DNA of 64,000 bases, taken from assembly GCA_000697665.1 (NCBI GenBank), contig KL197716.1, positions 954,922 to 1,018,921 of the forward strand. The letters run 5' to 3'. Both the position numbers and the translations under genes were made by a program. Under the pieces are notes generated by a model, which did no database searches, was not told the DNA's origin, and saw nothing but the letters and a program-made list of their open reading frames with translations. This DNA is from Jaapia argillacea MUCL 33604. Taxonomy: Eukaryota; Basidiomycota; Agaricomycetes; Jaapiales; Jaapiaceae. This document shows positions 7,266 to 48,108 of this stretch, in pieces (within the stretch, counting starts at the first letter, position 1; the number at the start of each line of letters is the position of its first letter).

Positions 7266-10200
7266 ATGGACTCGGTTGCTAACCCAGAGCTCATCACTCC
7301 CAATATATCCTTCCAAACTGGCATTCGCCTCAAGGCTACAGATAGCTCTACTCCCCCCAACGCTGAGACCATCGTCGTCTCAGTATGTTCTGAGTTCACG
7401 ACCCACTCCATGCCTGCTACCACGGTCGACTCTAGGCATAAACTGGGCAGCGCATTGGGCTCAGACAATCAGCCGATCGTTTTCACAATAGGGAACGACG
7501 GGGTGAGCACGACGTACTCATCACGTGAAGTGTCCTCGTCCACTGACATGATGACCTTTGTAGCGCTTCTATTGTATCCAACATGTGACTGGACAGTCGT
7601 GGAAGGCTGTCGACATCACGCCGTATGGAAGCACGGCCAGCGCGGTGACGTTCGACGTGTATTATAGCTCGGGAAAAGTTGCAATCGGCGTAGCTGTCAA
7701 TCTTACATCTTCTTCTCTGCGCCCACACTCTATTTTGCCGGTCCTATCAGCATTACAAGTACTTTTAACCCGTCCGGTTCGTCTCCCTGGTTCACCTTCC
7801 TGCTCGTCGCTGATGTATCCTATTGCACGTTATTTGTGAACAGCCATCGCCTTCACTAAGATCAATAATGACCCATCAGTTCCTGTCGTGTCAATGACGG
7901 TCGCTGCGTCCGACTCAAACCTGAAGAAACCATTTTTCATGGTTATCGGGACGCAGGAAACTGCTTCTGACAGAGCGACGGACTACGTCGTCTCCACGGA
8001 CCCCTCCGAGAGTTCGCCTTGGAGCATCATCTCCCTACCAGAGAATGCGACCAGAGTCCTCAAAGTCGTCCCTATCACTCAAAGGATCCCATTCAATGCA
8101 TGTGTGGCTTCTCTTTACCAGCAGGTTGTTTCCGGCGAATCCCCTCCCCCAGATGTCGGGACCGCAGTGTCATGCCTCAGCCTTGAAAAGAGTCTTAACA
8201 TCGCCGTCGTGTTGGACAAAATTGGTGGCGGAAGAGACGTGTCGACGACCGTCACGGCCAAAGGTCTCTCCGATTTGTATGTCGCTGGTGTGAATGGAAT
8301 CGGGTACTATTCAAGCCAAATTATGGACCGAGACGTATGTGCTAGATTTTACCATGAGGATGCTAACGGCCGACTCTTTATTGACAGCCTGTCGTGATCC
8401 TCCCAGACGTCTCATTTCAACAGGTGGTGGCGTCCGAAGACAACCACAAGATCTCCATATTCGCTCTGTCCAAGTTCGGGGACCTGTATTATATTGAAGG
8501 CACAAGGAAGTCGTCGACGGGCACTCCGAAATTCACTGCGTCCACCTACCCAATCCGGAAGGGGGTCGGGATTCTGTCTACCCAATACAACGCAGCGGTC
8601 AATGCCTGCGAAGCGATGTACGTCGATTCCTCCAGTCAGCTCAAGCACCTATGGCGCGATTCCCAGACGGGGACGTGGTCTGAACAGACTATCCATGTCC
8701 CTACAAGCGGCAAGGCAATCTCGTGCGTTATATGGCCCTCTGTTCTATGAGGCCCCAGTCGACTTACTGTGTATTAGGTATCATGCGTTCGTGAGCCACA
8801 TACAGCTGCAGGGAAGCCGGGGCGCGTCCATTCGCGGCGGGCGTGAAATCGTGCGTTATGTACTAAATTCCTGTATCCGGTACTAATCAAGCACCTGTCT
8901 CTGTCCAGATACTTTCTGCAACTGAACTTGCCTATGTAATGATCAATGACGTGGCGCATAGGCTGGATCGAGACCCAGTGAAGCTCACCACCGACTCCGA
9001 TGGCCAGGTTCGTGTGGTGATACAAGCAGGTTCTCAGCTCGCCTCTCCGACCATTTCAGCCACTCTCGTCGGCGTCAGCGATCCCGATTTCTCATTTCGA
9101 GTCGAGTCACGCCAGCGCGTGCTGCGCAAGTGGGGTCGCATTCAATCCGGTTCAGACCTCAAGAATGCCAAATCTACTGCCGGGGATCCCGTCTTTCCGA
9201 ACACTACAATTCATGACGAGACGTTTGCAACCGCCGCCAACCTTCTAAGCAGGACTCCCGACATCGTCTCTCACGTTGATGGTTCTGCCTCCAAATTGAC
9301 AGGAAGCAATGCTTCTGCTAGCTTTGCGACAAGTTTGCCGCATTCATTCTTCGCCTCTGAAAGGACGACTTCCGGTCACAGCGTCACCTCTAAGCTTGAT
9401 TGGACTGCCGGCGCGGAGGACGCAGTCGACGCCTTGGGCGACTTCCTTGAGTCCGTGTGGCACGGTATGCTCAGTGTGGCCAAGTTTGCCATCAATGTTG
9501 TTGGAGATGTTGTCAACTTCTTTGCAGAGATCAGAGGCAAGGTATTGCGATGGGTTCTCGATACCGTTGGGAGTGTCATCCGCTGGTGAGAAACTCTTGG
9601 CGTTCCCCTTTTCCTGTACGCTTGCTTACCAATCCTTGTTGGCGAGCAGTGTTGCCACGTTTCTGAAGGACACGCTTGGCATCGACCCTACTCGGTTCCT
9701 CGCCTTGTTCGGGTTCCTTTGGGACTATCCCAATATTTTGAAAACGCAACAAGTAGGTGGAATTATTTTGCAACGAGGGATATTATCGACCCTCCCATAG
9801 ATCATCGTCAAGACGGTGCAAGATGGGTCTGCGCTTCTCCAGGATACCGTACAGGGGAACACTCCCTGGCTGAAGACCCATATCAAGGAACTTCGCCCTC
9901 TTATCTCACCGTTCATTAAAGACGAACGAGTTCCGGAGGCTAAAAACTTCGTCGCCGACGCCAAGGATGATCTGGAAAAGTCATTCCTTGGGAGGTTGCT
10001 GAAGTCAATACTCGATAACCCTATTGTCAAGGCGGTCTTACGCTATGCGTCTATGTGGATGCTCCAGGTCATTTCTCTCCTCGAAGATCAGATATCCTTC
10101 CCTGGCCTCGGAGACTTGGAAAATGTCTTGGATGAGAAGTTTAGCGCGATTCTGGAGAAATTGATGATCGACGCCGAAGATGGACTCTTCACCTTCGTCC

Positions 10201-11624
10201 GAGACATTTTCAACGGGATTGGGGAGGTTGTAGCAGGCACACGTAACATTGGTGATTTGTTCACCGTGATCTTTTCGGACGCCTTTTGGTCGATCTTCGA
10301 CGCCGCCCAGGACGTTGCTCTTTCCTTGGTCGACCTGCTCTCCGATCTGCTCGGTGGAATTCTCAAGATGGTCACCGGCCATATCAAGTTTCCAGGAACG
10401 TCTGCATTCTGGGAATCATTCACGGAGACCCCATTCTCCATTGTAGATGTCGGGAGCCTGATTCTGGCGCAGATCATGTACCTCGTCACGATGATGTGGC
10501 AAGAGAAGCTTCCATTCGATGTCATGACTCCGTGGTATCTTTTGCTGCCCGAAAAGGGTTCCATTCATTTCCCCCCCATCCAGGATAGAGGTGGAGGTGG
10601 CCATGCCTTGACCAAGCTTATGAAGCAAAAAGCACCTGACGTAGCTCTACAATCGGATAGTGGATCGGTAAGTAGTACGCTGCTCCGCGTCACTATCTGC
10701 GTCTAACGACGTCCGATGTTTGCAGGTCCTCACACATATGATGATCGACCTGTGCTGCTACGAGTTGTCATCTATTGCATCAATGATCGGCACTGCCGGC
10801 GAGCTCGCCATTCTCTCTCCGAAAACTCGGATGGAAGGGTTTGAATTGCACAATTTCGATGGGGAAGGCATTGGTGCAGCTTTCCACTCCCCTTCTTTAA
10901 TGCGCCACTGAACAACTCTACCTACTAGGATCTAGCTTCCCCGAGATAAAGGCCACGAGATCTGCGCTGCCTTTCATACGAAACCTGCAGATCGCCTGTT
11001 CTGGTGTTCAATTAACCATGCAGATCACTGTTCTGTGCAATGCACTCGTCCGCACTATCCCCCACAAAATCGCAGCGCGTGATGCAATTTTGGTGTGCAC
11101 ATTTACCTCCCTCTTATCTTGAGATAGTGGTTCAACGTTGTATATGCGCACAGCCATTGTTCAAGGTCGTTGCTATCGCGATGAACGGAATCACTCTCGC
11201 TGTCCGCATCAAACGCTTGGAAGCAAAATATCCGTGGGTTTCGTATCTTGCACCCGGGGCAAACATCCTCGCTCTCCCTGGAGGGATATGGTAGGCTGCA
11301 CTCTTCTCCCATCCGAAGCCGACCTACACACTCATACATATTTGTAGGTCCTTCATCGATTCCGACAAGACGAGTGGAGACTGGATCGCGTTCTCTGGTT
11401 CCTTGATTAACACGACAGCCGCAGGCTGCGACATTGCCACCACCGCCTTAAGCCAAATGGGTGAACAGAGATTGAAGTGGATTCCTTTCGCGGTTTCGGC
11501 AGGTTTGAACATTGCCCAGGCTGGAACCAGTGAGGATCAATTCTTTCTAACCTTGACTTCGTGTTTGATTGATGCGCGATCCATAGCCGTGTGGTACTAT
11601 TGCGATTATAAAGCGAATCATTGA
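7266..11624 (+). CDS. Large unknown protein: beta-rich N-terminal half, helical/hydrophobic C-terminal half
   Basis: I do not recognise the family. The start is MDSVANPELITPNISFQTG at 7266; many short introns follow and the last exon ends ...YYCDYKANH at 11624. The first half (to about 9.1 kb) is rich in short beta-type segments, such as RFYCIQHVTGQSWKAVDI, GLSDLYVAGVNGIGYYSS, FGDLYYIEG and LKHLWRDSQTGTWSEQTIHV, spaced like blades of a beta-propeller. The second half is mainly amphipathic helix, for example LGDFLESVWHGMLSVAKFAI, FLKDTLGIDPTRFLALFG and SLILAQIMYLVTMMWQEKLP, and near the end VSYLAPGANILALPGGIWSF. By hand the frame is not continuous near 7.70-7.74 kb; an intron I missed or an indel could explain it. 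No signal peptide is evident. It is divergent from the gene ending at 5958. Confidence 0.6.
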
Positions 11625-11895: not shown

Positions 11896-13670
11896 TCAAG
11901 ATATCATTGCAGGCCCACTAAAATACCAATACATTGGTGTCTTCCAGTTCCAGTATCCGGATGAGCGACCAGGAGATGAATTCTGCGTGTAATGTTCACA
12001 CATGTTGAACTCCATCTCGAATATCTCCCTGTTATGCACCACCCTAAAGTTGGCCCTCTCATCCATCAACTTTTGTCGCTCTTCCTTCGCCTGCTCCATC
12101 GTGATGATCCCACCCCTTCCATCAATCTCTCCAGCCAACTTGTCATTGATCATATCAAACAATTCCAGAGGCAGCGCAGTGAGGGAAGGGGCTTTGCCGA
12201 ATTCCCGGAGATACCACGCGTGTTGTTGAGGTACTTTGGAAGTCGAGAGAATTGTTATGGTGGGATCGACGAGGAAGAAGCAGAGGATCTTTCGAAGGAC
12301 TGGTTTGGTGGGATCGACCAAGTCGAATGGCGAGACTCGATGTTGGTAAATGTTGAGGAAGGCGAGACACTTGTCCTCCTTTGTGATGACGGTACCAAGC
12401 TCCTGGTTCAAGAAGCCACTGTCACCGTCGATACCATATGCAGCCATGTAGCCCTGGTTGTCGCTTTGTTTATATGGGATGTCCATTCCTTGATCGCCAC
12501 CACCCACGGCTTTACGGAAACCCAACTTCGATTCCGATATGTTGGAAGAATGGTAGTAATATAAACCAGTCGAGACGATTCGCTCGTTCTCCATGCCTTC
12601 AACGTGCCACGAACCACCTTCGTATTTTGGGTTCTCGGGGGTCAAAACGATGTTGGCCATCTTGACAATGACCTGAATCTTGCGACCTTTCAACGTGAAG
12701 TGGACTTCGTCTTCAGTGGGGGGCGGAGTGAAGGGAAGAGGATCGGGGATGAGTGGCCACCTCACTTCGTTCTTGTATTTATCCTAGGCAAGGTGATATG
12801 CGTTTGTATCTAGATCTCCATTGCTTTTGTAATCCTGGTAATACGGCTCTTGGTCGTTTACATGTTCGTACCAACCGAATGAATCTGGTCTAATGACCAG
12901 ATGTTCCGGGCTGAGAGTCGCAGAGAGGACGCGATCCCATAGTGGGATGAACTGTTGGGGGATGGAAGTGATGGTGGCAGTGAGAGGTTTGTATAGGTCG
13001 GGATGGAGGTTGTTAATGTACCCAAGGGAGGTGACCTCGCCCGTCGATGATACGTCGAAATCGGTTGGGAGCCATTGGTGTTGAGTCGACACTGAAAACG
13101 AGACGCAGGAGTTGGCGTAGTCGATGTCGGGCCGTTGTTCCATATATTCCTCCTCGGTTGGGACATAGAACGTACCATCATCATTCTTTACGAGAGACTT
13201 CCCAATGCGAAAGCAAAAAAGAGAGGGATGGACGAGATCGAGGACCCGACTGTTGGTACCTGGATGCCAATCCTTCTCTGCTTCGGGGACCGACTCGAGA
13301 GCAGACGCTCCATTGATGAGAGCGGCTTTGAGGTTCGAAGGGATGAGCTCGAGGGATTCGTAGACTCTATTGATCCCAGTGGCCTACCAGAACCCGTAGA
13401 ACCATCAGAGAATTCTAAGGGAGAGGAACATAGTGACTGTCATACATGTATCCCGGTGTTGGCATCCCTTTGCTCTGCCAACCACCTGAGATTATCGAAG
13501 ACATAATCCAACTGTACTTCATTAAGTGGGGCCCTCGGCCATCGCTTTCTTCGAAACTCCTGCCAGTTGAATTCATCGTGATCGCCAGCCAAGGCTAACG
13601 CTGCGTTGATCTCCCGCTCAGTCTTGATTCTCCACATCGTCTTAACCATCTCTGCATCTTGGTCGATGAA
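11896..13670 (-). pseudogene. DUF4246 family gene, copy 1 (broken)
   Basis: The leftmost copy keeps most of exon 2 (start 13384, ATGINRV-like) and part of exon 1 but cannot make a full protein. Its 5' end is deleted: homology to the first exon of copy 2 stops at 13670 and jumps straight into sequence matching the 5' leader of copy 2, removing about 60 codons with the start codon. An in-frame TAG stands near 12786-12791 where copies 2 and 5 have a sense codon before the (N/Q)EVKWPLIPDP block. The family stop codon after NMCEH is TAC here, so the frame runs on about 30 codons to 11896. The core still shows GGSWHVEGMENERIVSTGLY and YQHRVSPFDLVDPTKP. A transcript from the retained leader could still exist. 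Confidence 0.85.
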
Positions 13671-13743
13671 ATCCTATGTGGGGTGACTCGGAGCTGAATT
13701 CTGGACGGTGGGGTTGAAATCTGGCTCAATTGGCCCTCCTGTG

Positions 13744-13750
13744 CCACGTG
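13744..13750. promoter_or_regulatory. CCACGTG motif upstream of copy 1
   Basis: CACGTG is the palindromic core bound by fungal bHLH factors. The same CCACGTG lies upstream of copies 2, 3 and 4 within otherwise homologous flanks, which argues that it came along with the duplicated promoter. Confidence 0.4.
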
Positions 13751-13844
13751 TGAGTTCTATCCGTCGTCCAGAAGCATTAAGAAGACATCGAGAGGCTCTA
13801 CATCACCATCATTCTACGTCCATGAACATACCACTACATTGATG

Positions 13845-14153
13845 TAGCGGCGCGGGAGCGCCAGAGTCCCCGACTCTGATTTATACCCCACTCCTCCATC
13901 CATCCCCAGCATTTCTTGTTCTTCAAGTTCCCTTACTTATCTTTTTCTCTTATCTCTTTATCATTATCTTGTCCAAATCTTGTCAGTAGTTACATATTTA
14001 CTTGAGGTATTCGAAACGTCACATCCACGCGATGTTCGAGCGAGACCAGAACGTTCTTGAAATGCGACGTCATTTTCCCACGAGGACGAAACTAACCGCG
14101 TGCCTGACGTTTGCAGGTATCCAAACCCTCTCTTCACTTCGTTCAGAGTCGGG
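13845..14153. mobile_element. 309-bp insertion with GATG target duplication, LTR-like
   Basis: Compared with the 3' flanks of copies 3 and 4 (ACATTGATGCCTTCCAG-like), the flank of copy 2 is interrupted after ACATTGATG (GATG at 13841-13844) and resumes at GATGCCTTCCAG (GATG at 14154-14157). The inserted segment starts with GC-rich TAGCGGCGCGGGAGCGCCAG and a pyrimidine-rich stretch ending in CAGTAGTTACA near 13994, a layout that recalls the LTRs of fungal Ty3/gypsy elements. A 4-bp duplication also fits LTR elements. No coding part is present. Family assignment is weak; the insertion itself is well supported by comparison among the copies. Confidence 0.55.
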
Positions 14154-14212
14154 GATGCCTTCCAGTTCCAGCATTCGAACAACGGACAAAGCGATCAGGA
14201 GATGAACTTTAT

Positions 14213-16071
14213 CTAATGTTCACACATGCTGAACTCCATCTCGAATACCTCCCTGTTATGCTCGACCCTAAAGTCAGCCCTCTCGACCATCAGCTTCTGC
14301 CTCTCTTCCTTCGCCTGCTCCATCGTGATGATCCCGCCCCGACCATCAATCCCTCCGACCAACTTGTCATTGATCATATCAAACAATTCCAGAGGCAGAG
14401 TGGTGAGCGAAGGGACTTTTCCAATTTCCCGGAAATACCATGCGTGTTGTTGGGGAGGTACTTTGGAAGTCGAGAGAATTGTTATAGTGGGATCAACAAG
14501 GAAGAAGCAGAGGATCTTTCGAAGGCCGGGTTTGGTGGGATCGACCAACTCAAATGGCGCGACTCGATGTTGGTAAATGTTGGGGAAGGCGAGACACTTG
14601 TCCTCCTTTGTGATGACGGTGCCAAGCTCCTGGTTCAAGAAGCCACTGTCACCGTCGATGCCATACGCAGCCATGTAACCCTGGTTGTCACTTTGTTCGT
14701 ATGGAATGTCGGCTCCATCACCGCCATCCCCAACAGCTTTACGGAAACCCAACTTCGATTCCGAGATGTTGGAGGAATGATAGTAATATAAACCGGTCGA
14801 GATGATTCGCTCGTTCTCCATGCCCTCAACGTGCCACGAACCACCTTCGTATTTTGGGTTCTCGGGGGTCAAAACGATATTGGCCATCTTGACGATGACC
14901 TGGATCTTGCGACCTTTCAAGGTGAATTGGACATCGTCCTCGACAGGAGGCGGAGTGAAGGGAGGGGGATCTGGGATTAGTGGCCACTTCACCTCGTTCC
15001 GGTAATGATCGTCGGCGAGCTGGAATGCTGCGTCATCGTGAATTCCTTCGCTGTTTTTGTAATCGTCGTAATCCGGCTCCTCGTCGAGGTGTTGGTACCA
15101 ACTGAATGGATCTGGGCTGATGACTAGAGGATCCGGGCTAAGGGTCGCAGAAAGGACGTGATCCCATAGTGGGATGAAGCGTTGGAGGATGGAAGTGATG
15201 GTCGTAGTGAGAGGCTTGTGTAGGTCGGGATGGAGGTTGTTAATGTACCCGAGAGAGGTGACAGCGCCCGTCGATGATACGTCAAAATCGGTTGGGAGCC
15301 ATTGGTGCTGGCTCGATACTGAAAACGAGGAGTCGGCATCTTCGATGTCGGGCCGTTGCTCCAAGTATTCCTCCTCAGTTGGTACATAGACCGTCCCATC
15401 GTCTTTCTTGACAAGTGACTTCCCAATGCGGAAGCAGAAAAGAGAGGGATGGACGAGATCGAGGACTTGGTTGTTGGTACCTGGGTGCCAATCCTTTTCT
15501 GCTTCGGGGACCGACTCGAGAACAGACGCCCCACTGATGAGAGCCGCCTTGAGGTTCGAAGGGATGAGCTCGAGGGATTGATAGACCTTACTGATGCCAG
15601 TGGCCTACCAGAACCCGTAGAACCATCAGAGAGTTGTAAGAGAGATGAGCATAACGATCGTCATACCTGTATCCCGGTATTGGCATCCCTTTGCTTGGCC
15701 AACCATCTCAGATTATCGAAGACATAATCCAACTGTACTTCGTTGAGTGGGTCCCTCGGCCATCGCTTTTTTCGAAACTCCTGCCAGTCGACTTCGCCGT
15801 CATCGCCAGCCTCAGCGATGGCTGCGTCCGTCTCCTCCTGAGTCCTGTCTCTCCACATCGTCTTGACCATCTCTGCATCTTGGTCGATGAACTCGTTCCG
15901 CCATTTGGCTATGATAGTCTCGTCGTGAACCTTTTGCCACCAGTTCGGTTTCTCAAGGATCTGGGAAGTTAGGGCTCGCAGCCGGAACTCCTTCAACGTG
16001 AGGAAGTTCATGTCATCGACAACACTGAAGGGCGAGGGGAATTCCACATCCTCGGTAGGAGGTTGAGTCAT
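14213..16071 (-). CDS. DUF4246 family protein, copy 2 (intact, 598 aa)
   Basis: Two exons, 16071-15667 and 15604-14213, with a 62-bp intron (GTATGAC...GGTAG), give 135 + 464 codons. The start MTQPPTEDVEFPSPF matches copy 5; an in-frame ATG far upstream is not shared between copies and was not used. Exon 1 carries FLTLKEFRLRALTSQILEKP and NEVQLDYVFDNLRWLAKQRD. Exon 2 carries STQHQWLPTDFDVS-like sequence, WPLIPDPPPFTPPP, the core KIQVIVKMANIVLTPENPKY, GGSWHVEGMENERI, YQHRVAPFELVDPTKPGLRK and a C-terminal EQAKEERQKLMVERADFRVE block. DUF4246 is a fungal family of unknown function. H-x-E after GGSW, then a distant H and R, resembles a 2-oxoglutarate/Fe(II) oxygenase site (inference). No signal peptide or membrane segment. 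Confidence 0.9.
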
Positions 16072-16726
16072 CGTATGTGGGGTGAACTGAGTCCTGGATG
16101 GTGGGGTTGAAACCTGACTGAGTTTTCGATTGGAACTGGGCAGCAAAGAGTTTTCTGAGGTGAAAGGATGGCGAATCTGGGGAGAACAGACACAACGTTT
16201 AAGGATCCCTGCGCGCCTCCCGCTATTCCAATCGGGGAAAGGAAGTGGGACACGCCTCATGTTGACTCTACACATCATCCCCATGTGGAATCTGGTCAGC
16301 TTGGAGTCAACTTCCGCACAACGTGATTATATGCAGCGCCGAGAGACCACTAAGAAATGGGCGGGCGAGATGGACGCTCAGCGCCCAGTCATCATACCAA
16401 GATCACGTTGGTCGTTGTTGCGAGTCAAGACGGGCCAACCGCGTCGGCATTTACCAAATTTAGTAATCCAACGACGCCTTCACTCAGCCGCAGGCTCTCC
16501 GGCGGCGGTCTGACCTGGTACGACGTTCGGCGCTTGAATACCGTGAGTCATGTTCTGGTGTTCAATACGTACAGAAACTGACTGGGATTGTGGAAGAGGA
16601 TGAGGATGAATAGTGGTCGTTGGATTATCGCTCAACTTTTTTGCGCCACGTGTGCTGTTTTTACCAAGATTCCAGTTCGTCGCATCTGTCGCATTTATCA
16701 CCATGTCAATGCGCTGTGCCCGGGGA
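16072..16726. promoter_or_regulatory. 5' flank of DUF4246 copy 2, duplicated promoter region
   Basis: This flank shares ordered blocks with the flanks of copies 3 and 4: a GAGACCACTAAG/GAACCACTGAG(C) block, a TTTACCAARTTTAGTA block followed by CAACGACGCC, a CAGAAACTGACTGGGATTGTGG block and CCACGTG (here 16646-16652, about 575 bp before the start codon). The duplicated unit therefore included regulatory sequence. Confidence 0.55.
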
Positions 16727-17480
16727 GGCCAATTTACTAGCGTTGCCACGAGCCGCCAGGACAAAGCTGTCAAAAACTGTCATGTCAGAATCGTAAGGGA
16801 CCTCTGGGACTGCGCAAGCATCAACTGGCGTATGGCAGGCATATCCTAGAGTGGAAATGGCCTTCCTCGTCGTGGCTGACAGCGACAAAGTCATTTCACC
16901 GACAAAGATTACGTAATTATCCCAAAGAGGCAACATTTTCCGCCGGCAATATCCGTTTCGACACCGAACCTTCGCGCTCGTCGTTGCCGACAATGTTGAC
17001 GCACGTTCTCTTGTTGTTCGCTAAAAAAAAAAAAAGAAGTCCTGGGTTTGTTTTGGTCTGAGTGACCTCACTGAGTCTCAGAAATGATCCTTACCACAGC
17101 ATGTAGCACGCCCCATAAATTCATATATATTGACTTGCATCTTCTCGAAGAAGTTGCTGTGAGCAATCTGAATTATTTTCTGAAATTTCACGAATTTTCA
17201 AAACATGGGTAGTGACTATAGTGTCCCGTCACTGTCCATGACAGTGAGCAGCGTGCGGCGACGGCGGAGGCACACATTTTGGGCAGAATTACGTAATCAG
17301 TATCGGCGAAACTGGCTTTGTCGCTGTCAGCCACGACGAGGAAGGCCATTTCCCCTTCAGGATACGCCTGCCATGTGCAAGTTGACGCTTACGCAGTCCC
17401 AGAGGTCCCTTATGATTCCGAGACGACACCTTCATCCAGCTTCATCCTGGCGGCTTATGGCAACCATACAATTTACTATT
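16727..17480. repeat. Long imperfect inverted repeat (foldback) between copies 2 and 3
   Basis: The left arm, about 16727-16960, matches in reverse complement the right arm, about 17255-17480. The best part is GACCTCTGGGACTGCG followed by GGAAATGGCCTTCCTCGTCG and TGGCTGACAGCGACAAAG, then ATTACGTAATT. Arms are over 200 bp and are separated by about 300 bp that includes an A13 run near 17023. Open frames in the two arms (16706-16993 minus and 17318-17575 plus) are related to each other because of the palindrome. It may be a foldback element or an inverted duplication; clear terminal duplications were not found. Confidence 0.65.
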
Positions 17481-17708
17481 CCAGTCACCGAACCTCTCTG
17501 CCAGTTCCGCCTGGATTGCACGATGATTTGCGTTGGGTCCTCCCACGTCTTCTACAGATACGATTGATTTGTTGACGAAGTATTTCTGCTCTGAGTCTGA
17601 GGGTCATCTAGGTTGAGAAGATCAAGATGTCATTGATTCATTCCATGTACATTGATGCCTCCCAGTGTCCGGACTGGAGACAAAGCGATCGCGAGATGAA
17701 TTCGGAGT

Positions 17709-19565
17709 CTAATGTTCACACATGTTGAATTCCATCTCGAATACCTTCTTGTTATGTTCGACCCTAAAGTCAGCCCTCTCGACCATCAACTTCTCCCTCT
17801 CTTCCTCCGCCTGCTCCAAGGTAATCATCCCACCCCTTCCATCAGTTTCTCCAACCAACTTGTCAGTGATCATGTCAAACAATTCCAACGGCAGCCCGGT
17901 GAGCGAAGGGGCTTTTCCAATTTCCCGGAAATACCATTCGTGTTGTTGAGGAGGTACTTTGGAAGTCGAGAGGATTGTTACGGTGGGATCGACCAACTCG
18001 AATGGCGCGACTCGGTGTTGGTAAATGTTGGGGAAGGCGAGACACTTGTCCTCCTTTGTGACTACGGTGCCGAGCTCCTGGTTTAAGAAACCGCGGTCAC
18101 CATCGATGCCATACGCAGCCAAGTAGCCCTGGTTTGTCACTTTGTTCATACGGAATGTCCATTCCCATATCACCATCCCCGACGGCATTACGGAAGCCCA
18201 ATTTCGACTCCGATATGTTGGAAGAATGATAGTAATATAAACCAGTCGAAACGATTCGCTCGTTCTCCATGCCTTCAACGTGCCACGAACCACCTTCGTA
18301 TTTTGGGTTCTCGGGAGTCAAAACAATATTGGCCATCTTGACGATGACCTGAGTCTTGCGGCCTTTCAAAGTGAATTGGACTTCGCCCTCGACGGGAGGT
18401 GGAGTGAAGGGGGGAGGATCTGGGATGAGTGGCCACTTCTCTTCGTGCATATATTTATTGTAGGCAAGCTGGAATGCTTGGTGATCGTGAATTCCATTGC
18501 CATTTTTGTAATCGTCGTAGTCCGGTTCCTGGCCGCTAAGGTGGGAGTACCAACCGTATGGATCTGGTCTGATGACTAGACGCTCCGGGCTAAGGGTCGC
18601 AGAGAGGACGTGATCCCACAGAGGGATGAAGCATTGGAGGATGGAAGTGATAGTCGTAGCGAGAGGTTTATGTAGGTCGGGATGGAGGTTGTTGATGTAC
18701 CCGAGTGAGGTGACCGCACCCGTCAATGATACGTCGAAGTCGGTGGGGAGCCATTGGTGTTGCGTCGAAACTGGCAAAAAGCGGCCCCAGTTGGGCTTGA
18801 TGTCGGGCCGTTGCTCCATGTATTCCTGCTCGGTTGGGACGTATAACGTCCCATCGTCTTTCTTGACAAGGGACTTCCCAAAGCGGAAGCAGAATGAGAG
18901 ATGGATGGACGAGATCAAGGACTTGATTGTTGGAACCCGGGTGCCAATCCTTTTCTGCCTCGGGGACCGACTCGAGAACTGAGGCCCCACTGATCAGAGC
19001 GGCTTTGAGGTTCGAAGGGATGAGTCCGAGGGATTGGTAGACTCTATCGATCCCAGTGGCCTACCAGAATCCGTGGAATTATTACAGGTTCTTAAGGGAG
19101 AGTGGGTGGCGAGTGTCGTACCTCTATCCCGGTGTTGGCATCCCTTTGCTCGGCCAACCATCTCAGATTATCGAAGACATAATCCAACTGTACTTCGTTG
19201 AGTGGGTCCCTCGGCCATCGCTTTCTTCGAAACTCCTGCCAGTCGACATCGCCGTCATCGCCAGCCTCAGCGATCGCTGCATTGATGTCCTCCTGAGTCC
19301 TGACTCTCCACATTGACTTGACCATCTCTGCATCTTGCTCGACGAACTCTTTTCGCCATTTGGCTATGATAGTCCCATCGTGAACCTTCTGCCACCAATT
19401 TGGTTTCTCAAGGATCTGAGAGGTGAGGGCTCGTAGTCGGAACTCCTTCAATGTTAGGAAATCCAAGTTATTGATAGGCATGAAGGGCGAAGGGAACTCC
19501 ACATTCTTGGCGAGGAACTCCTTCGGTGTTAAGAAGTCGAAGTCGTCGATAGGTTGCCAAGCCAT
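17709..19565 (-). pseudogene. DUF4246 family gene, copy 3 (broken)
   Basis: Exon 1 (19565-19122, start MAWQPIDDFDFLTPKEFL) and the intron (19061-19121) look sound; exon 2 is damaged. Compared with its sister copy 4 it has one extra base near 18896 in the LVHPSLFCFR stretch and one extra T near 18133 in the EQSDNQGYLAAYG stretch. It also has an in-frame 48-bp deletion near 17990 that joins the two VDPT motifs, taking out the KPGVRKILCFFL segment. The deletion end points coincide with an 11-bp direct repeat, GTCGATCCCAC, still double in the other copies. The family stop is kept at 17709. The two shifts make a full-length product impossible. The flanks and the N-terminal extension show it is the closest relative of copy 4, so the damage is recent relative to that duplication. 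Confidence 0.88.
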
Positions 19566-20354
19566 GGTATGTGGGTGAGCTGAGTCGTGGATGGTTGAAA
19601 CCAGAATGAGTTTTCTGAGCAGACATAACGTTTAAGTAAGTATCCCTGCGGGCCTGCCAAGATCCCTGGACGCTGCCGCTATTCCAAACGGGGAAAAGAA
19701 ATGGGACACGCCTCAGGAACCACTGAGCAGAGGGCGAGCGTGATGGGCGCTGGGCCGAGTCAACGTATCAGGTCACGTCGAGGTCATGGGTACGTCGGTG
19801 TGAGTCAAGCGATGCCCGCCGCGTCGGGATTTACCAAGTTCAGTAATACAACGACGCCCCTGGCCCAGTCCGATGTTCTGCGCTTCAGCCTCGTGAGTCG
19901 TCTTCTGACACAGAAACTGACTAGGATTGTGGAGGATAAGGGTGATTCAGAAGAGCGGTTGTCGGACTATCCGTTTCTGCGCCACGTGTGTTGTTCCGTA
20001 CACTTCGTGGCGTCCATCTCAGAATTTTTATTTTTATTTTTTTTGGTGGAGCGTTTAGATCCATCTTAGGGTTACAATCCGCTGTACCGTGCATAAGTAC
20101 CCAGCCACTGGCCGCGTTATCCCAACCACCAACTATGCAATTTCACGATGACTCGGACCCAACATACTATGTATCATCCCACGTCTGTCACGGATATGGT
20201 TTGCAGACTACCATTGCTATGAAGTCTTGAAGATCACTCGTGTTGAGAAACATCTGTACCATCGGTTCATTCTGCGTCCACAAAGATACCAAATACATTG
20301 ATGCCTTCCAGTGTCCGGACTGGAGACAAAGCGATCGCGAGATGAATTCGTAGT
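19566..20354. promoter_or_regulatory. Spacer: 5' flank of copy 3 and 3' flank of copy 4
   Basis: The 5' flank of copy 3 repeats the block order seen upstream of copies 2 and 4, with CCACGTG at 19982-19988 about 417 bp before the start codon and a T-rich run near 20029-20045. The left part of the spacer toward copy 4 contains ACAAAGATACCAAATACATTGATGCC, the uninterrupted form of the flank that carries insertions beside copies 2 and 5. No gene is seen. Confidence 0.5.
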
Positions 20355-22257
20355 CTAATGTTCACACATGTTGAATTCCATCTCGAATACCTTCTTGTTA
20401 TGCTCCACCTTGAAGTCAGCCCTCTCGACCATCAACTTCTCCCTCTCCTCCTTCGCCTGCTCCATCGTGATGATCCCACCCTTTCCATCAGTTTCTCCAA
20501 CCAATTTGTCAGTGATCATGTCAAATAATTCCAAAGGCAGCCCAGTGAGGGAAGGGGCTTTTCCGATTTCCCGGAAATACCACTCGTGTTGTTGAGGAGG
20601 TACTTTGGAAGTCGAGAGAATTGATATCGTGGGATCGACGAGAAAGAAGCAGAGGATCTTTCGAACACCAGGTTTGGTGGGATCGACCAACTCGAATGGC
20701 GCGACTCGATGTTGGTATATGTTGGGGAAGGCGAGACACTTGTCCTCCTTTGTGACTACGGTACCAAGCTCCTGGTTCAAGAAACCGCGGTCACCATCGA
20801 TGCCATATGCAGCCAAGTAGCCCTGGTTGTCACTTTGTTCATACGGAATGTCCATTCCGTATGAACAATCTCCGACGGCATTACGGAAGCCCAATTTCGA
20901 CTCCGATATGTTGGAAGAATGGTAGTAATATAATCCAGTAGAGACGATTCGCTCGTTCTCCATCCCTTCAACGTGCCACGAACCACCTTCGTATTTTGGG
21001 TTCTCGGGGGTCAAAACGATGTTGGCCATCTTGACAATGACCTGAATCTTGCGACCTTTCAAGGTGAATTGGACTTCGCCCTCGACGGGGGGCGGAGTGA
21101 AGGGGGGAGGATCTGGGATGAGTGGCCACTTCTCTTCGTGCATATATTTATCGTAGGCAAGCCGGTATGCTTGGCGATCGTGAATTCCATTGCTATCTTT
21201 GTATTCGTCGTAGTCCGGTTCCTGGACGCTGAGGTGGGAGTACCAACCGTATGGATCTGGTCTGATGACCAAACGCTTCGGGCTAAGGGTCGCAGAGAGG
21301 ACGCGATCCCACAGAGGGATGAAGCATTGGAGTATCGAAGTGATGGTCGTAGCGAGACGTTTGTGTAGGTCGGGATGGAGATTGTTGATGTACCCGAGTG
21401 AGGTGACCGCACCCGTCAATGATACGTCGAAGTCGGTGGGGAGCCATTGGTGTTGCGTCGAAACTGGCAAAAAGCGGCTCCAGTTGGGCTTGATGTCAGG
21501 CCGTTCCTCCATGTACTCCTGCTCGGTTAGGACGTATAACGTCCCATCGTCTTTCTTGACAAGGGACTTCCCAAAGCGGAAGCAGAAGAGAGATGGATGG
21601 ACGAGATCAAGGACTTGATTATTGGTACCTGGGTGCCAATCCTTTTCTGCTTCGGGGACCGACTCGAGAGCTGAGGCCCCACTGATCAGAGCGGCTTTGA
21701 GGTTCGAAGGGACGAGTCCGAGAGATTGATAGACTCTATCGATCCCAGTGGCCTACCAGAATCCGTGGAATTATTAGAGTTTTTTGAGGGAGAGTAGATG
21801 GCGAGCGTCGTACCTCTATCCCGGTGTTGGCATCCCTTTGCTCGGCCAACCACCTCAGATTATCGAAGACATAATCCAACTGTACTTCGTTGAGTGGGTC
21901 CCTCGGCCATCGCTTTCTTCGAAACTCCTTCCAATCGACTTTGCCGTAGTCGCCAGCCTCAGCGATCGCTGCGTTGATGTCCACCCGAGTCCTGATTCTC
22001 CACATTGACTTGACCATCTCTGCATCTTGCTCGACGAACTCTTTTCGCCATTTAGCTATGATAGTTTTGTCGTGAACCTTTTGCCACCAATTTGGTTTCT
22101 CAAGGATCTGAGAGGTGAGAACTCGCAGTCGGAACTCCTTCAATGTGAGGAAATCCAAGTTATTGACAACACTGAACGGCGAGGGGAACTCCACATTCTT
22201 GGTGAGGAACTCCTTCGGTGTTAAGAAGTCGAAGTCGTCGATAGGTTGCCAAGCCAT
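20355..22257 (-). CDS. DUF4246 family protein, copy 4 (intact, 613 aa)
   Basis: Exon 1 is 22257-21814 (148 codons), the intron 61 bp, exon 2 21752-20355 (466 codons with stop). The start is MAWQPIDDFDFLTPKEFLTK. This N-terminus is longer than in copies 2 and 5 and looks like an internal duplication: DDFDFLTPKEF followed about 20 residues later by NNLDFLTLKEF. The rest follows the family: NEVQLDYVFDNLRWLAEQRD, ATGIDRV at the exon junction, STQHQWLPTDFDVSLTGAVT, WPLIPDPPPFTPPPVEGEVQ, GGSWHVEGMENERI, YQHRVAPFELVDPTKPGVRK. The segment after the tail of exon 1 has KPNWSRFLPVS, shared only with copy 3. The whole frame is open, which I checked through the region where copy 3 is shifted. Confidence 0.9.
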
Positions 22258-22960
22258 GGTATGTGGGTGAGCTGAGTCGTGGATGGTTGAAACTAGAATA
22301 ATGAGTGTTCGAGCACACTTGGACAGCAAATAGTTTTCTGAGCAGATACAACGGTTAAGTATGTATCCCTGCGAGCCTGCCAAGATCCCTGGACGCTGCC
22401 ACTATTCCAAACGGGGAAAAGAGGTGGGGCACCTCAAGAACTTCCGTACAAAGTGACTGGATGCAGCGCCGAGCGAACCACTGAGCAATAGGCGATCGTG
22501 ATGGGCGCTCGGCCGAGTCAACGCATCAGGTCACGTTGGGGTCATGGTCGTTGGTGTGAGTCAAGGTGATACCCGCGCCATCGGGATTTACCAAATTTAG
22601 TAGTACAACGACGCCGTTGACCTGGTCTGATGTTCTGCACCCTTGGTAGTCGTTTTCTGACGCAGAAACTGACAAGGACCGCGGAGGATGAGGGTAAAGA
22701 GCGGCTGTACATGCCATTGGCGATCGTTCATAACTTTTCTGCACCACGTGGGTTGTTCACCCCACCATCCTTGCATCATCCCAGCATGAATTGCATGATG
22801 ACTTGGACATGCATCATGATACCTACACTACCATCCCACGTTTGTTACGAATATGATTGGTTTGCGGACAGCTTCTGATGTGAAGTCTTGAAGATCATCC
22901 ATGTTGAGAAGCATCTGAATGTAGATAATATTGGTTCATTCTACGCCTATAAAGATGCCA
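22258..22960. promoter_or_regulatory. Spacer: 5' flank of copy 4 and 3' flank of copy 5
   Basis: Carries the duplicated promoter blocks, including GGGATTTACCAAATTTAGTA near 22582, CAACGACGCC near 22606 and CCACGTG at 22744-22750, about 487 bp upstream of the copy 4 start. No separate gene is seen. Confidence 0.5.
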
Positions 22961-23036
22961 AGTATCTCCAGCAGAACAGAAAGAGCTTGATGCCTTCCTA
23001 GAGGAACAGCTTCGCAAAGGGTACATCAGACCCTCC
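22961..23036 (+). mobile_element. 76-bp fragment of a Ty3/gypsy reverse transcriptase
   Basis: The plus strand reads VSPAEQKELDAFLEEQLRKG followed by YIRPSK, the well-known stretch just before the ASPFFFVKKKDG region of fungal Ty3/gypsy reverse transcriptases. It interrupts the 3' flank of copy 5 at a place where copy 4 reads continuously, and only this short piece is present. It is a fossil fragment, with neither LTRs nor other element parts around it. Confidence 0.75.
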
Positions 23037-23098
23037 AAATACATTGACCCCTTCTGGTATCCGAATGGGAGACAGTCGTTACGACGTGGGTTTCACGT

Positions 23099-24961
23099 CT
23101 AATGTTCACACATGTTGAACTCCATCTCGAATATCTCCTTGTTATGCTCAACCCTAAAGTTGGCCCTCTCATCCATCAACTTCTGCCTCTCCTCCTTCGC
23201 CTGTTCCATAGTGATGATCCCGCCGGGTCGCTCCGGCGCTTCCATCAACTCATCATTCACCATGTCGAACAACTCCAAAGGCAACGCACTAAGGGAAGAC
23301 GGCTTGCGAATTTCCCGGAAATACCATTCGTGTTGCTGGGGAGGTACTTTGGAAGTTGAGAGAATAGTTGTAGTGGGGTCGACGAGGAAGAAGCAAAGAA
23401 TCTTTCGAAGGCCAGGTTTGGTTGGATCGACCAATTCGAATGGCGCGACTCGATGTTGATAGATGTTGGGGAAGGCAAGACACTTGTCCTCCTTTGTGAC
23501 GACTGTGCCAAGTTCCTGGTTCAGGTAACCGCGGTCACCATCGATACCATACGCAGCCAAGTAGCCCTGGTTGTCGCTTTGTTCATATGGGATGTCCATT
23601 CCTTGATCGCCACCACCCACGGCTTTGCGGAAACCCAACTTCGACTCCGATATGTTGGAAGAATGGTAGTAATATAAACCAGTCGAAACGATTCGTTCGT
23701 TCTCCATGCCTTCGACGTGCCAGGAGCCACCTTCGTATTTTGGATTCTCGGGAGTCAAAACGATGTTGGCCATCTTGACGATGACCTGAATCTTCCGACC
23801 TTTCAGGGAAAAATGGACGTCGTCATCGACGGGGGGCGGAGTGAAGGGAGGAGGATCTGGGATGAGTGGCCATTTTACTTCCTGCTTGTATTCGTGGAAA
23901 GCAGTGTTGTATGCTTTTATATCAAGGATTCCGTTGTTTTTGTAATCATTGTCATCCGGTTCTTGGTCGTTGATGTGTTCATACCAACCGTATGGATCTG
24001 GTCTGATGACTAGATGTTCGGGGCTGAGAGTCGCAGAGAGGACGCGATCCCATAGTGGGATGAAGCGTTGGAGGATGGAAGTGATGGTCGTAGTGAGAGG
24101 TTTGTGCAGGTCGGGATGGAGGTTGTTGATGTACCCAAGAGAGGTGACCGCGCCGGTTGATGATACGTCAAAATCGGTTGGGAGCCATTGGTGTTGGGTC
24201 GACACTGAAAAAGAGTCGGCGTCGTCGAAGTCGGAGAGTCGCACCAGGTATTCCTCCTCAGTGGGGACGTATAACGTGCCATCGTATTTCTTGACAAGGG
24301 ACTTCCCAATGCGGAAGCAGAAAAGAGAGGGATGGACGAGATTGAGGACTTGGTCGTTGGTACCTGGATGCCAATCCTTCTCTGCTTCGGGGACCGACTC
24401 GAGAACTGACGCCCCACTGATGAGAGCGGCTTTGAGGTTGGAAGGGACGAGCTCGAGGGATTGGTAGACTCTATTGATCCCAGTGGCCTGCCGAAAACCG
24501 TGGAACCGTCAGAGAGCTGTAAGGAAAAGAGGCGTAGGCTAGTATCGTACCTGTATCCCAGTGTTGACATCTCTTTGCTCGGCCAACCACCTCAAATTAT
24601 CGAAGATATAATCCAACTGTACTTCGTTGAGTGGGTCCCTCGGCCATCGCTTTCTTCGAAACTCCTGCCAGTCGACTTCGTCGTGACCCCCAGCCGCCGC
24701 CTCGGCTATCGCTGCGTTGATCTCTTCCCGAGTCTTGACTCTCCACATTGTCCTGACCATATCCACATCTTGGTCGATGAACTCCTTTCGCCATTTGGCT
24801 ACAATGGTCTCGTCATGAACCTTTTGCCACCAGTTTGGTTTTTCAAGGATCTGAGAGGTGAGGGTCCAGAGCCGAAACTCCTTCAATGTGAGGAAGTCCA
24901 TGTCGTTGCCAGCAGTGAAGGGTGAGGGGAATTCCACATGTTTGGCGTGAGGTTGAGTCAT
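23099..24961 (-). CDS. DUF4246 family protein, copy 5 (intact, 599 aa)
   Basis: Exon 1 24961-24551 (137 codons), a 63-bp intron, exon 2 24487-23099 (463 codons with stop). The start MTQPHAKHVEFPSPF resembles copy 2. Conserved blocks are FLTLKEFRLWTLTSQILEKP, NEVQLDYIFDNLRWLAEQRD, STQHQWLPTDFDVSSTGAVT, WPLIPDPPPFTPPPVDDDVH, GGSWHVEGMENERI and YQHRVAPFELVDPTKPGLRK. Where copies 1-4 read (M/L)EQRPDI or similar, this copy has LVRLSDFDDADSFS, a local divergence of about ten residues. Near the C-terminus it carries PERPGGIITMEQAKEERQKL, as in copy 6 (PERPGRI), so copies 5 and 6 share a subtype. It lies at the upstream end of the tandem array with respect to transcription. Confidence 0.9.
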
Positions 24962-25545: not shown

Positions 25546-25547
25546 TA

Positions 25548-26546
25548 TTACAGCCGTTTGCAGAACTCAAGGCGCGACGCGGAAATTCCAAATTTTGCTG
25601 GAATTTTGTCGATATCTTACGCAGCCTGTATCTCACTCAATACATACGCTGCACTTCTGAAAATATGACCATTCAAACGGTGTTTTGAACGCGGAGGGCA
25701 TCATCGCTTTCAAATGCGAAAACATGCGCTTTTTCGGGTTGCCAGATATTCGACCCCTCCACCAGCAAACAGAGAATCTCTCGACCGCAATTCAACGCAG
25801 CAGTCTGAAAATTAGATAGCGAGAACGGCATGGTCAATCCGCAGGGCCTCATAATTTTTTTGTGTTCGAAGGTGGATTCTTTTTTGTCGACATCTATCGT
25901 ACTTCCGGAAAGTGTTGCCTGCGCTCTTCTCTCAACCACGTCTTCATTTGCAACACATCTGTAGTCTACGAAAGACCTCATAGAAGGAACCCTGCTCCCC
26001 GCCCGCAAGCTTATCATCGCGATCGCAAGGGACAGCTCATTCACCAGGTGTACCCTCTCGGGATGTCTAGCACACAGGCCACCATATCACTTGACATACC
26101 TGTCTGAATTGTCTAGTGTGTCTTGAGAATGTGGAGGGAAATTGGGGAGGTATGTAAGGACAGGATCCGACTGGGGTGGGCACCCTTGATGGCCCCCAAT
26201 GCTGTCAGAGTATGTGCTCAACCTTTGAATAGAAAAAAATGATGAGGCCCTGCGGGTTGACCAGGCCATTCTCGCTATCTAATTTTCAGGTCGCTGCGTT
26301 GAGTTGCAGTCAAGAGATTCTCTGTTTGCTGACGGAGGGGTCGGATTTCTGACAACCCGAAACACCGCGTTTTTTTGCATTTGAAAGCGACGATGCCCTC
26401 CACGTTCCCAACGCCATTCGAATGGTCATATTTTCAGAAGTGCAGTTTATGTATTGAGTGAGATACAGGCTGCATAAGATATCGACAAAATTCCAGCGAA
26501 ATTTTGAATTTCCGTGCCGCGCCTTGAGTTCTGCAAACGGCTGTAA
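25548..26546. mobile_element. 999-bp foldback/MITE-like element with 314-bp terminal inverted repeats
   Basis: The left arm 25548-25861 begins TTACAGCCGTTTGCAGAACT and the right arm 26233-26546 ends with its reverse complement. The arms match along their whole length with scattered substitutions, including ATTTTGTCGATATCTTA, CAGCCTGTATCTCACTCAAT and GAAAATTAGATAGCGAGAA. TA lies on both outer edges (25546-25547 and 26547-26548), as expected for a TA-target element of the Tc1/mariner type or a derived MITE. The centre (25862-26232) has no transposase-like frame. It would need a transposase supplied from elsewhere. A non-autonomous DNA element is the best reading; a simple inverted duplication is less likely given the TA edges. 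Confidence 0.85.
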
Positions 26547-26563
26547 TATTGCGTTGCTTTACC

Positions 26564-45752: not shown

Positions 45753-46230
45753 AGTAGTCTTGATTATATTTAACCCGATTTTTGATGGATGGTCGGCTCC
45801 ATGTCTGGTAGTAGAGTGTCAGTGCAGCGAAAGCAAATGGGATGCATTGTGCGATCATGACGTGGTTATTAGATTACTAAGTTTGGTAAATCCCGACTGG
45901 ACTTATCCCGACATCCCCCATGACCTCGTCGATTGTCGTCTGACTCGACACCGAGCACATATCCAGCTTCCATCCAGGCCTAATTGATCGGTCGGCGCTG
46001 CACCGAATCATTTTATGTGGCCGATCGTCACTAGAGCGATGTCGTGCAGACTCCGGGGCCCGTTCCTTTCCCCTTGTTGAAGGTGTGCATTGGATACATA
46101 AACGTTGATAGACCCCTTCGTAGATTTGGCATACCGCTGCAAGTCCCCTATGTCCCGACGTCGCCTCCCACATCATGATTCACAGGACTCGGAGTACGAC
46201 CCAACCCCACCATATGGCAGGACTCATCAT
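45753..46230. other. Intergenic region before DUF4246 copy 6
   Basis: No gene seen. An in-frame ATG at 46150 would extend copy 6 by 27 residues (MSRRRLPHHDSQDSEYD). Confidence 0.4.
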
Positions 46231-48108
46231 ATGCCGCATGCGGTGGCTCAACCTCACACCGAATATGTGGAATTCCCCTCACCCTTCATGGCCGCCAGTA
46301 CCCTGGACTTCCTCACTCTGAAGGAGTTCCGACTGCGAGCTCTGACCTCCCAGATCCTTGAAAAACCGAACTGGTGGCAAAAGGTTCACGACGAGACTAT
46401 CGTTGCCAAATGGCGTCAGGAGTTCGTCGACCAAGATGCAAAGATGGTCAAGACGATGGGGAGAGTCAGGAGTGAGCCGGAGCTCAACGCAGCGTACGCT
46501 GTGACTCGCGATCAAGACGAATTTTACTGGCGGGAGTTTCGAAAAACACGATGGCCGAGGGACCCACTCAATGAAGCGCAGTTGGATTATGTCTTCGATA
46601 ATCTGAGGTGGTTGGCCGAGCAAAGGGATGCCAATACCGGGATACAGGTTAGACACTCGCTGTGTCCCTCTCCCTTACAACTCTGATGGTTCTACGGGTT
46701 GTGGTAGGCCACTGGTATCAATAAGGTCTATCAATCCTTCGAGCTTATCCCTTCGAACCTCAAGGCCGCTCTTATCCGTGGAGCGTCTGTTCTCGAGTCC
46801 GTTCCCGACGCAGAAAAGGATTGGCATCCAGGTACCAACAACCAAGTCCTCGATCTCGTCCATCCCTCTCTGTTCTGCTTCCGCATTGGGAAGTCCCTTG
46901 TCAAGAAAGACGATGGGATGCTATACGTCCCCACCGAGGAGGAATACATGGAGCAGCGGCCCGACATCTACGGCGCCTACTTCTCAGTGTCGACCGAGCA
47001 CCAATGGCTCCCAACTGATTTCGACGTATCATCTACCGGCGCAGTGACCGCTCTCAACTACATCAACAACCTCCATCCCGACCTACACAAACCTCTTATT
47101 AATACCATCACTGCCATTCTCCGACGGTTCATCCCACTATGGGATCGAGTCCTCTCTGCGACTCTCAGCCCGGAACACCTAGTCATCAAACCGAATCCAT
47201 TCCGTTGGTACGAACATGTCAAGGACAAAGAACCGAAGTACGACGATTACAACATCGATGGGGTTCGGGATAGGGCAGCGTACCGGATTGCTCACGCTAA
47301 ATACCGGAGCGAACTGAAGTGGCCACTCATCCCAGACCCTCCTCCCTTCACTCCACCTCCCACTGAGGACGAAGTCCGATTCACCCTGAAAGGTCGCAAG
47401 ATTCAGGTCATCGTCAAGATGGCCAACATCATTTTGACTCCCGAGAACCCAAAATACGAAGGTGGCTCCTGGCATGTCGAAGGCATGGAGAACGAGCGAA
47501 TCGTATCGACTGGTTTATATTACTACCATTCGTCGAACATATCGGAGTCGAAGTTAGGTTTCCGTCAAGCCGTGGGCAGTGGCGATCCACCACACGGTAA
47601 TCCAGCCTACGGCATCCCATCCGAACAAAACGACGACCAGGGATACATGGCCGCGTATGGTATTGATGGCAATCGCGGTTTCTTGAACCAGGAGCTTGGC
47701 ACCGTCATCACAAAGGAGGACAAGTGTCTCGCTTTTCCCAACATTTACCAACATCGAGTTGCGCCATTCGAGTTGGTCGATTCCACCAAACCTGGTGTTC
47801 GAAAGATCCTCTGCTTCTTCCTCGTCGATCCCACGATCACGATTCTCTCGACTTCTAAAGTACCTCCTCAACAACACGAATGGTATCTTCGGGAAATTCG
47901 CAAACCTTCTCCGCTCACTGCGTTGCCTTTGGAATTGTTTGAGATGATCACCACCAGGTTGATGGAAGAGCCGGAGCGACCCGGTAGGATCATCACGACG
48001 GAGCAGGCGAAGGAAGAGAGGCAGAAGTTGATGGATGAGAGGGCCAACTTTAGGGTGGAGCACAACAAGGAGATTTTCGAGATGGAATTCAACATGTGTG
48101 AACATTAG
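46231..48108 (+). CDS. DUF4246 family protein, copy 6 (intact, dispersed and inverted)
   Basis: Exon 1 46231-46647, a 60-bp intron, exon 2 46708-48108, giving 605 aa. The chosen start MPHAVAQPHTEYVEFPSPF aligns with MTQPPTEDVEFPSPF of copy 2. Core motifs are complete: STEHQWLPTDFDVSSTGAVT, WPLIPDPPPFTPPPTEDEVR, KIQVIVKMANIILTPENPKY, GGSWHVEGMENERI and YQHRVAPFELVDSTKPGVRK. It has a private insertion GSGDPPHGNPAYGIPSEQND where other copies have a shorter GGGDQGMDIPYEQSDN, and shares the PERPG subtype near the end with copy 5. It is on the opposite strand, 21 kb from the array with unrelated single-copy genes between, so it moved or the array arose from it. Intron position and phase are identical to those in the array. 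Confidence 0.9.

Follow-up and report, generated by a model that had tools for sequence, protein, structure and literature searches.

The locus considered here lies in a stretch of 64,000 nucleotides (the window) of the genome of Jaapia argillacea MUCL 33604, a basidiomycete of the class Agaricomycetes and the order Jaapiales; the genome is a 43.7-Mb assembly of 95 contigs, in which the window corresponds to positions 954,922-1,018,921 of contig C8. Between window positions 11,896 and 24,961, five genes of the DUF4246 family (copies A to E) lie head to tail on the minus strand with starts 2.2 to 3.5 kb apart, and the copies follow a common gene plan of two exons separated by an intron of about 60 nt. 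Copies B, D and E are open and copies A and C are broken; the two-exon gene models and the mapped damage (Table 1) thus bear out the five head-to-tail copies, three open and two broken, described in a first-pass annotation of the window that was made from the letters alone.

The two broken copies were damaged in different ways. Copy A has lost the equivalent of codons 1-59, which is the 5' part of exon 1, and carries an in-frame TAG at 12784-12786, while its normal stop position (11989-11991) is no longer a stop, so that the frame continues to 11896. In copy C, one extra base was inserted near 18.89 kb and another near 18.12 kb, and 48 nt were deleted near 17.98 kb; the deletion removes the strand with the equivalent of R497 (residues are numbered as in copy B throughout), the putative ligand of 2-oxoglutarate (2OG). 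The public model of copy C, P0004, is listed as an ordinary protein, yet it jumps the damage and is without the 2OG-arginine strand. Among the intact copies, copy B is the public protein P0002 (JAAARDRAFT_192719, 598 aa), with a 100% match of exon 2; P0003 matches copy E at 96.6% over a stretch containing the copy E intron; and exon 2 of copy D is 94% identical to P0001, the protein of copy G outside the window. The two stops that the profile search placed in copy F fall between its exons, and the gene is therefore intact. In comparison to copy B, the protein identity of exon 2 was 84-85% for A, D and E and 80% for F, which is far beyond chance.

Table 1. Positions of the DUF4246 copies, the inserted elements and the divergent paralogues (window coordinates unless a contig is named)
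Feature	Position	Strand	Details
Copy A, broken	11992-13680	-	Exon 1 remnant 13673-13446; exon 2 13383-11992
Copy B, intact	14213-16071	-	Exon 1 16071-15667; 62-nt phase-0 intron; exon 2 15604-14213
Copy C, broken	17709-19565	-	Public model P0004 (JAAARDRAFT_192720, 569 aa)
Copy D, intact	20355-22257	-	Exon 1 22257-21814; exon 2 21752-20355
Copy E, intact	23099-24961	-	Exon 1 24961-24551; exon 2 24487-23099; public protein P0003 (JAAARDRAFT_33915)
Copy F, intact	46150-48108	+	Public protein P0005 (JAAARDRAFT_33923); 21 kb from the array, inverted relative to it
Copy G (P0001, locus L009)	C8:926,719		Inverted relative to the array; outside the window, 39 kb away
Inserted element, 723 nt	16742-17464		B-C spacer; terminal inverted repeats of ~185 nt
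Fold-back element	25546-26548		Upstream of copy E; arms of 331 nt, 89% complementary
L011	C9:702551-703714		DUF4246 paralogue, pair with L012; metal motif W-H-V-E changed to W-L-V-Q; CEH absent
L012	C9:710909-712000		DUF4246 paralogue, pair with L011; same change of motif; CEH absent
L015	C43:124428-125628		Jaapia member of a divergent DUF4246 sub-family, with HxA

A search of the whole genome with the PF14033 profile gave 19 matches, which were counted as 15 loci. Seven DUF4246 loci fall within about 76 kb of C8, namely A to E together with the inverted copies F to the right and G to the left, and the remaining PF14033 loci are on C8, C9 (two pairs), C29, C43 and C44. The lowest synonymous divergence (dS) was observed for the pairs C-G (0.157), C-D (0.184) and D-G (0.211), in comparison to 0.38 to 0.58 for the other pairs among A to G and 1.4 to 2.2 between these copies and the C44 copy, and the ratio of nonsynonymous to synonymous divergence (dN/dS) among A to G was low, at 0.16 to 0.27, for open and recently broken copies alike. 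The tree of the copies joined G, C and D with full support (100/100) and E with F (89/94), and left the placement of A and B open. At the N-terminus, copies C, D and G are also longer by about 15 residues, and in this extension a piece resembling FLTPKEF (FFTPKEY in G) is similar to the FLTLKEF that follows it; this is perhaps a small internal duplication, which would support a common origin of the three. In a FastTree analysis of 323 proteins, in which A and D were not rows, the public proteins of B, C, E, F and G and the C44 copy formed a Jaapia-only set of six (support 100), and because of this set the array was probably built within the Jaapia lineage, through duplications within the row and outside it, together with partial exchange and loss. 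Recombination between copies, either unequal or ectopic, would have produced the array and would provide dose and sequence variants of one enzyme.

These data support the earlier reading of birth and death, an ordinary mode of evolution, in what is a lineage-specific array, through the Jaapia-only set, the range of dS and dN/dS and the two broken copies among the five. Two other explanations were weighed against it. The divergence of the copies excludes allelic copies and answers the assembly artefact that the first-pass annotation had named as a refutation, and we regard an assembly or haplotype artefact as extremely improbable: nothing was found in favour of it, no dS among A to G is below that of the C-G pair, and both the damage and the spacers differ from copy to copy. 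It is also unlikely, though considerably less so, that the copies evolve in concert through gene conversion rather than by birth and death. In a mosaic test with 10000 shuffles, 14 of 105 mutually non-independent triplets passed the Bonferroni threshold on all sites and 4 of 105 on third codon positions (with 2000 shuffles the smallest reachable p was too high for Bonferroni, and the count was 0 of 105); against concerted evolution, even the least divergent copies differ by 6% in coding sequence and two copies are decaying. The array is not closed on itself, as G clusters with C and D and exchange between the copies can be detected; conversion is partial and probably acts together with birth and death.

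As for the proteins themselves, DUF4246 is composed of a helical N-terminus, PF21666, and a catalytic part, PF14033. Copy B scored 381.5 bits and 43.2 bits for the two, respectively, in comparison to curated cut-offs of 26.7 and 27.4, and P0003 (E), P0001 (G) and P0005 (F) were also over both cut-offs. The fold predicted by AlphaFold2 in two models, the first of which was copy B, has a double-stranded beta-helix core. A triad of H393-x-E395 and H481, read from sequence, was found in 309 of 333 protein rows, from Actinomycetota to basidiomycetes, and R497, the basic residue after the distal histidine with which the last core strand begins, is present in 304 of the 309 rows with the triad. In the Foldseek searches, 2OG enzymes were the best matches of both models, with prolyl hydroxylases close behind HrmJ, BelL and TqaL, and weak profile matches to PF13759 (2OG-FeII_Oxy_5) recurred in 11 of 57 members (best E 0.004). 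We consider it quite probable that the array genes encode 2OG/Fe(II)-dependent oxygenases, as the predicted fold and the conserved residues indicate, and that they form a lineage-specific birth-and-death cluster; a nearly invariant C-terminal Cys-Glu-His (CEH) is proposed, as a hypothesis, to close over or touch the active site. The unknown function noted at first can be narrowed to a probable 2OG-Fe(II) oxygenase.

The first protein search scored 3692 relatives, of which the 120 listed are the best-scoring part. A scan of bacteria, using one genome per prokaryote species, gave 295 pattern matches, 220 of which were confirmed; the best 80 of the 220 were all Actinomycetota by title, mostly Streptomyces, and had 38-41% identity in the best segment, with matches that spanned almost the whole length. 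In the 323-protein tree, which carries long-branch warnings, 90 bacterial rows fell together with two ungrouped rows (support 99). The gene is also present on three plasmid records, and two annotated Streptomyces plasmid loci had no obvious common partner gene. Among viral contigs, 20 stretches matched a pattern and none encoded a relative by tblastn. The predicted structures of three giant-virus proteins in BFVD, A0A6N1NNB3 (Tupanvirus), A0A481Z543 (Pithovirus) and A0A5K0U7T6 (Yasminevirus), the last of which already bears the name Fe2OG dioxygenase-domain protein, matched the DUF4246 model over 488-633 alignment columns with E of 8e-20 to 7e-32 and 22-28% identity, and because of these matches to predicted structures a transfer involving giant viruses is suggested. 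With many actinobacterial homologues and these predicted viral relatives, the initial label of a fungal family was too narrow. Grouping of the genes recurs in other fungi: five Heliocybe proteins come from contigs 1,540,913 bases long and six Epithele proteins from contigs 732,800 bases long, each set being assigned to a single contig because species and length agree, and four pairs of consecutive locus numbers were observed in Rhizoctonia and Ceratobasidium. In the bdelloid rotifer Adineta ricciae, a gene model of 999 aa (P0189) joins DUF4246 to fumarase-type domains, either by fusion or by annotation error.

The other conserved feature of the family is its extreme C-terminus. The proteins ended in CEH in 118 of the 120 from the first search and in all 80 from bacteria, both sets being the best-scoring part of larger ones, and CEH was present in 287 of the 309 rows with the triad. 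Three of the triad-bearing rows without a terminal CEH have it slightly before the end. In the sub-family of the C43 type (P0121-P0141), none of the 21 proteins ends in CEH, though five keep the triad.

Several observations weigh against the oxygenase assignment and the role given to CEH. No curated family names an oxygenase (Pfam gives DUF4246 and NCBIfam no match), no useful PDB sequence match was obtained, and PF13759 was under its cut-off in one Streptomyces member (12.4 bits in comparison to 27). The Foldseek alignments were loose, with template modelling scores by query length of 0.10 to 0.30 and many root-mean-square deviations greater than 10 A, and a cupin-type sugar isomerase stood at rank 16 of 23 matches below 0.001 in one list. 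The CEH is absent in 22 of the 309 triad rows and kept in 3 of the 24 rows without the triad; after correction for the tree, the coupling of CEH with the triad was non-significant, as 8 independent pairs gave on average 4.2 in the same direction, 0.0 against and 3.8 with no difference (p ~0.125), and the CEH tail had a low predicted local distance difference test score in both models (about 45 and 52). In a clustering of the genes around the 80 bacterial loci (853 open reading frames (ORFs) predicted by a simple picker, which recovered the DUF4246 gene itself in 70 of the 80 loci), the commonest cluster occurred at only 10 of the 80 loci and no pointer to a substrate was obtained. Much of the association between CEH and the triad is shared descent, and we treat the C-terminal lid as a hypothesis because the coupling is largely of this kind and the tail is of low confidence in both models. 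The lack of constant neighbour genes in bacteria, for its part, suggests that the enzyme works alone.

The same fold could also serve a different chemistry or none. A double-stranded beta-helix with the same metal triad may belong to a cupin-type dioxygenase, decarboxylase or isomerase that does not use 2OG, for which speak the sugar isomerase just mentioned (E 2.8e-4, with a further match at rank 23, 7.7e-4), the cysteine dioxygenase, hydroquinone dioxygenase and oxalate decarboxylase that appeared in the Foldseek lists at 1e-3 or weaker, and the acidic ligand, which is Glu, a less usual metal ligand than the commoner Asp. The best matches of both models are nevertheless 2OG enzymes, R497 is kept in nearly all triad-bearing rows and the weak profile matches recur on PF13759, and we consider a cupin-type enzyme improbable. 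Even less probable, in our estimation, is that an old oxygenase fold now serves binding or regulation without catalysis. The triad is wholly or largely lost in two sub-lineages, and a few single rows are also without it. One of these sub-lineages is the C43-type set, spread over Agaricomycetes, in which the triad and the 2OG arginine are eroded in many different ways; the other is the Jaapia L-x-Q pair on C9 (L011 and L012), which still shows a dN/dS of 0.27. These two proteins, one of which has an in-frame TAG in its gene, look like pseudoenzymes from their sequences, but the full triad is kept in the great majority of rows across the whole range from Actinomycetota to basidiomycetes. A halogenase was considered as well, since HxA or HxG in place of HxD/E is the mark of Fe/2OG halogenases and the Jaapia C43 paralogue has HxA; its relatives read HVE, HVK, RVE, RVA, QVE, QVQ and RVQ, which is erosion, and HxA/HxG was not conserved in the first-search proteins, of which 119 of 120 read WHVEG and one was unmatched by the pattern.

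For a 2OG-Fe(II) oxygenase, Fe(II) would be held by H393, E395 and H481 and 2OG by R497, O2 would give Fe(IV)=O for the oxidation of an organic small molecule, with release of succinate and CO2, while the nearly invariant free C-terminus with CEH, on a flexible tail, may close over or touch the active site in the way of the isopenicillin N synthase C-terminus. That the substrate is an amino-acid-derived or xenobiotic small molecule is a guess, possible but tentative. The solved folds nearest to the models belong to enzymes that act on amino acids, which is a weak pointer to the substrate because prolyl hydroxylases follow closely. Jaapia lives on wood, and the lineage-specific expansion suggests a possible role where the fungus meets a variable set of chemicals, for example wood extractives. 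A wider and rather doubtful extension would be that DUF4246 forms a separate large 2OG-Fe(II) branch common to Actinomycetota and fungi, in which the nearly invariant CEH, serving the active site as a gate or an additional ligand, allows chemistry beyond plain hydroxylation, and which wood-dwelling fungi multiply in arrays like a detoxifying enzyme.

Text searches of one literature library found no paper about DUF4246, and PF14033 gave only titles on Plasmodium and related parasites or on enzyme profiles, presumably coincidences of locus names. The array itself is ordinary; the value of the analysis is that thousands of proteins so far filed under unknown function can now be tested as an oxygenase family, one whose conserved C-terminus is odd. 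The stand-alone bacterial member in many Streptomyces makes the chemistry directly testable in a laboratory strain, CEH is a specific and cheaply testable mechanistic prediction, and the array provides natural variants.

The surroundings of the copies were less uniform than the complete duplicated flanks claimed in the first-pass annotation, which were not upheld. Flank similarity was patchy: among B, C, D and G the shared pieces measured about 60-450 nt, at 69-97%, and those of A, E and F stayed below 80 nt. The strongest shared flank was a 333-nt stretch, at 86%, in the upstream regions of D and G. The B-C spacer is longer owing to a 723-nt element, which is bordered on both sides by the 10-base direct repeat CAATTTACTA and is matched over its whole length at six places in the genome (73-100% identical, the B-C spacer copy counted). 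It is probably a non-autonomous DNA transposon, which we take to be Mutator-like. The fold-back element has one full-length relative in the genome at 90%, another that spans 3-830 of its 1003 nt at 91%, and weaker or shorter pieces, and no clear target duplication was seen around it. By Pfam, the genes nearby in the window encode, among others, a sugar transporter, a UvrD-type helicase, a methionyl-tRNA synthetase, an OPT transporter, SARAF and an MFS protein, and no pathway-like cluster was found among the 40 window ORFs scanned with Pfam, out of 107 ORFs of at least 110 aa outside the array. Just left of the array, at 7840-10703 on the plus strand, there are long open frames, three of which were scanned and had no Pfam match.

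Among known systems, the closest in structure are HrmJ and BelL of Streptomyces, which are described in PMC10764440 as 2OG-Fe(II) cyclopropanases acting on L-6-nitronorleucine, together with TqaL, which acts on L-valine. HrmJ and BelL were solved with 206-230 residues in comparison to about 500-600 in DUF4246 and are 9-15% identical to it in the structural alignment, and none of their PDB chains was among the matches of the DUF4246 profiles A1 and A3 at E up to 10. DUF4246 differs from them in its helical N-terminal part, its long inserts, its conserved C-terminus and its lack of recurrent neighbour genes. TqaL, a fungal aziridine-forming 2OG oxygenase, and the isoleucine dioxygenase IDO also have little sequence identity to DUF4246, and the weak match to PF13759 covers the strand of the distal histidine in one Streptomyces case but is under the cut-off there, so that it does not indicate membership. 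A conserved extreme C-terminus on a non-haem iron enzyme, putatively so for DUF4246, is shared with isopenicillin N synthase, in which, according to PMC5637899, the last residue but one, Gln330, is a metal ligand as long as no substrate is present, and the tail closes around the substrate; in DUF4246 the terminal residues are CEH and the position of the tail comes from low-confidence models, so that this is a resemblance only. Cytochrome P450s, a birth-and-death family, differ from DUF4246 in enzyme class but share with it tandem duplication, loss and lineage-specific expansion (PMC8670302).

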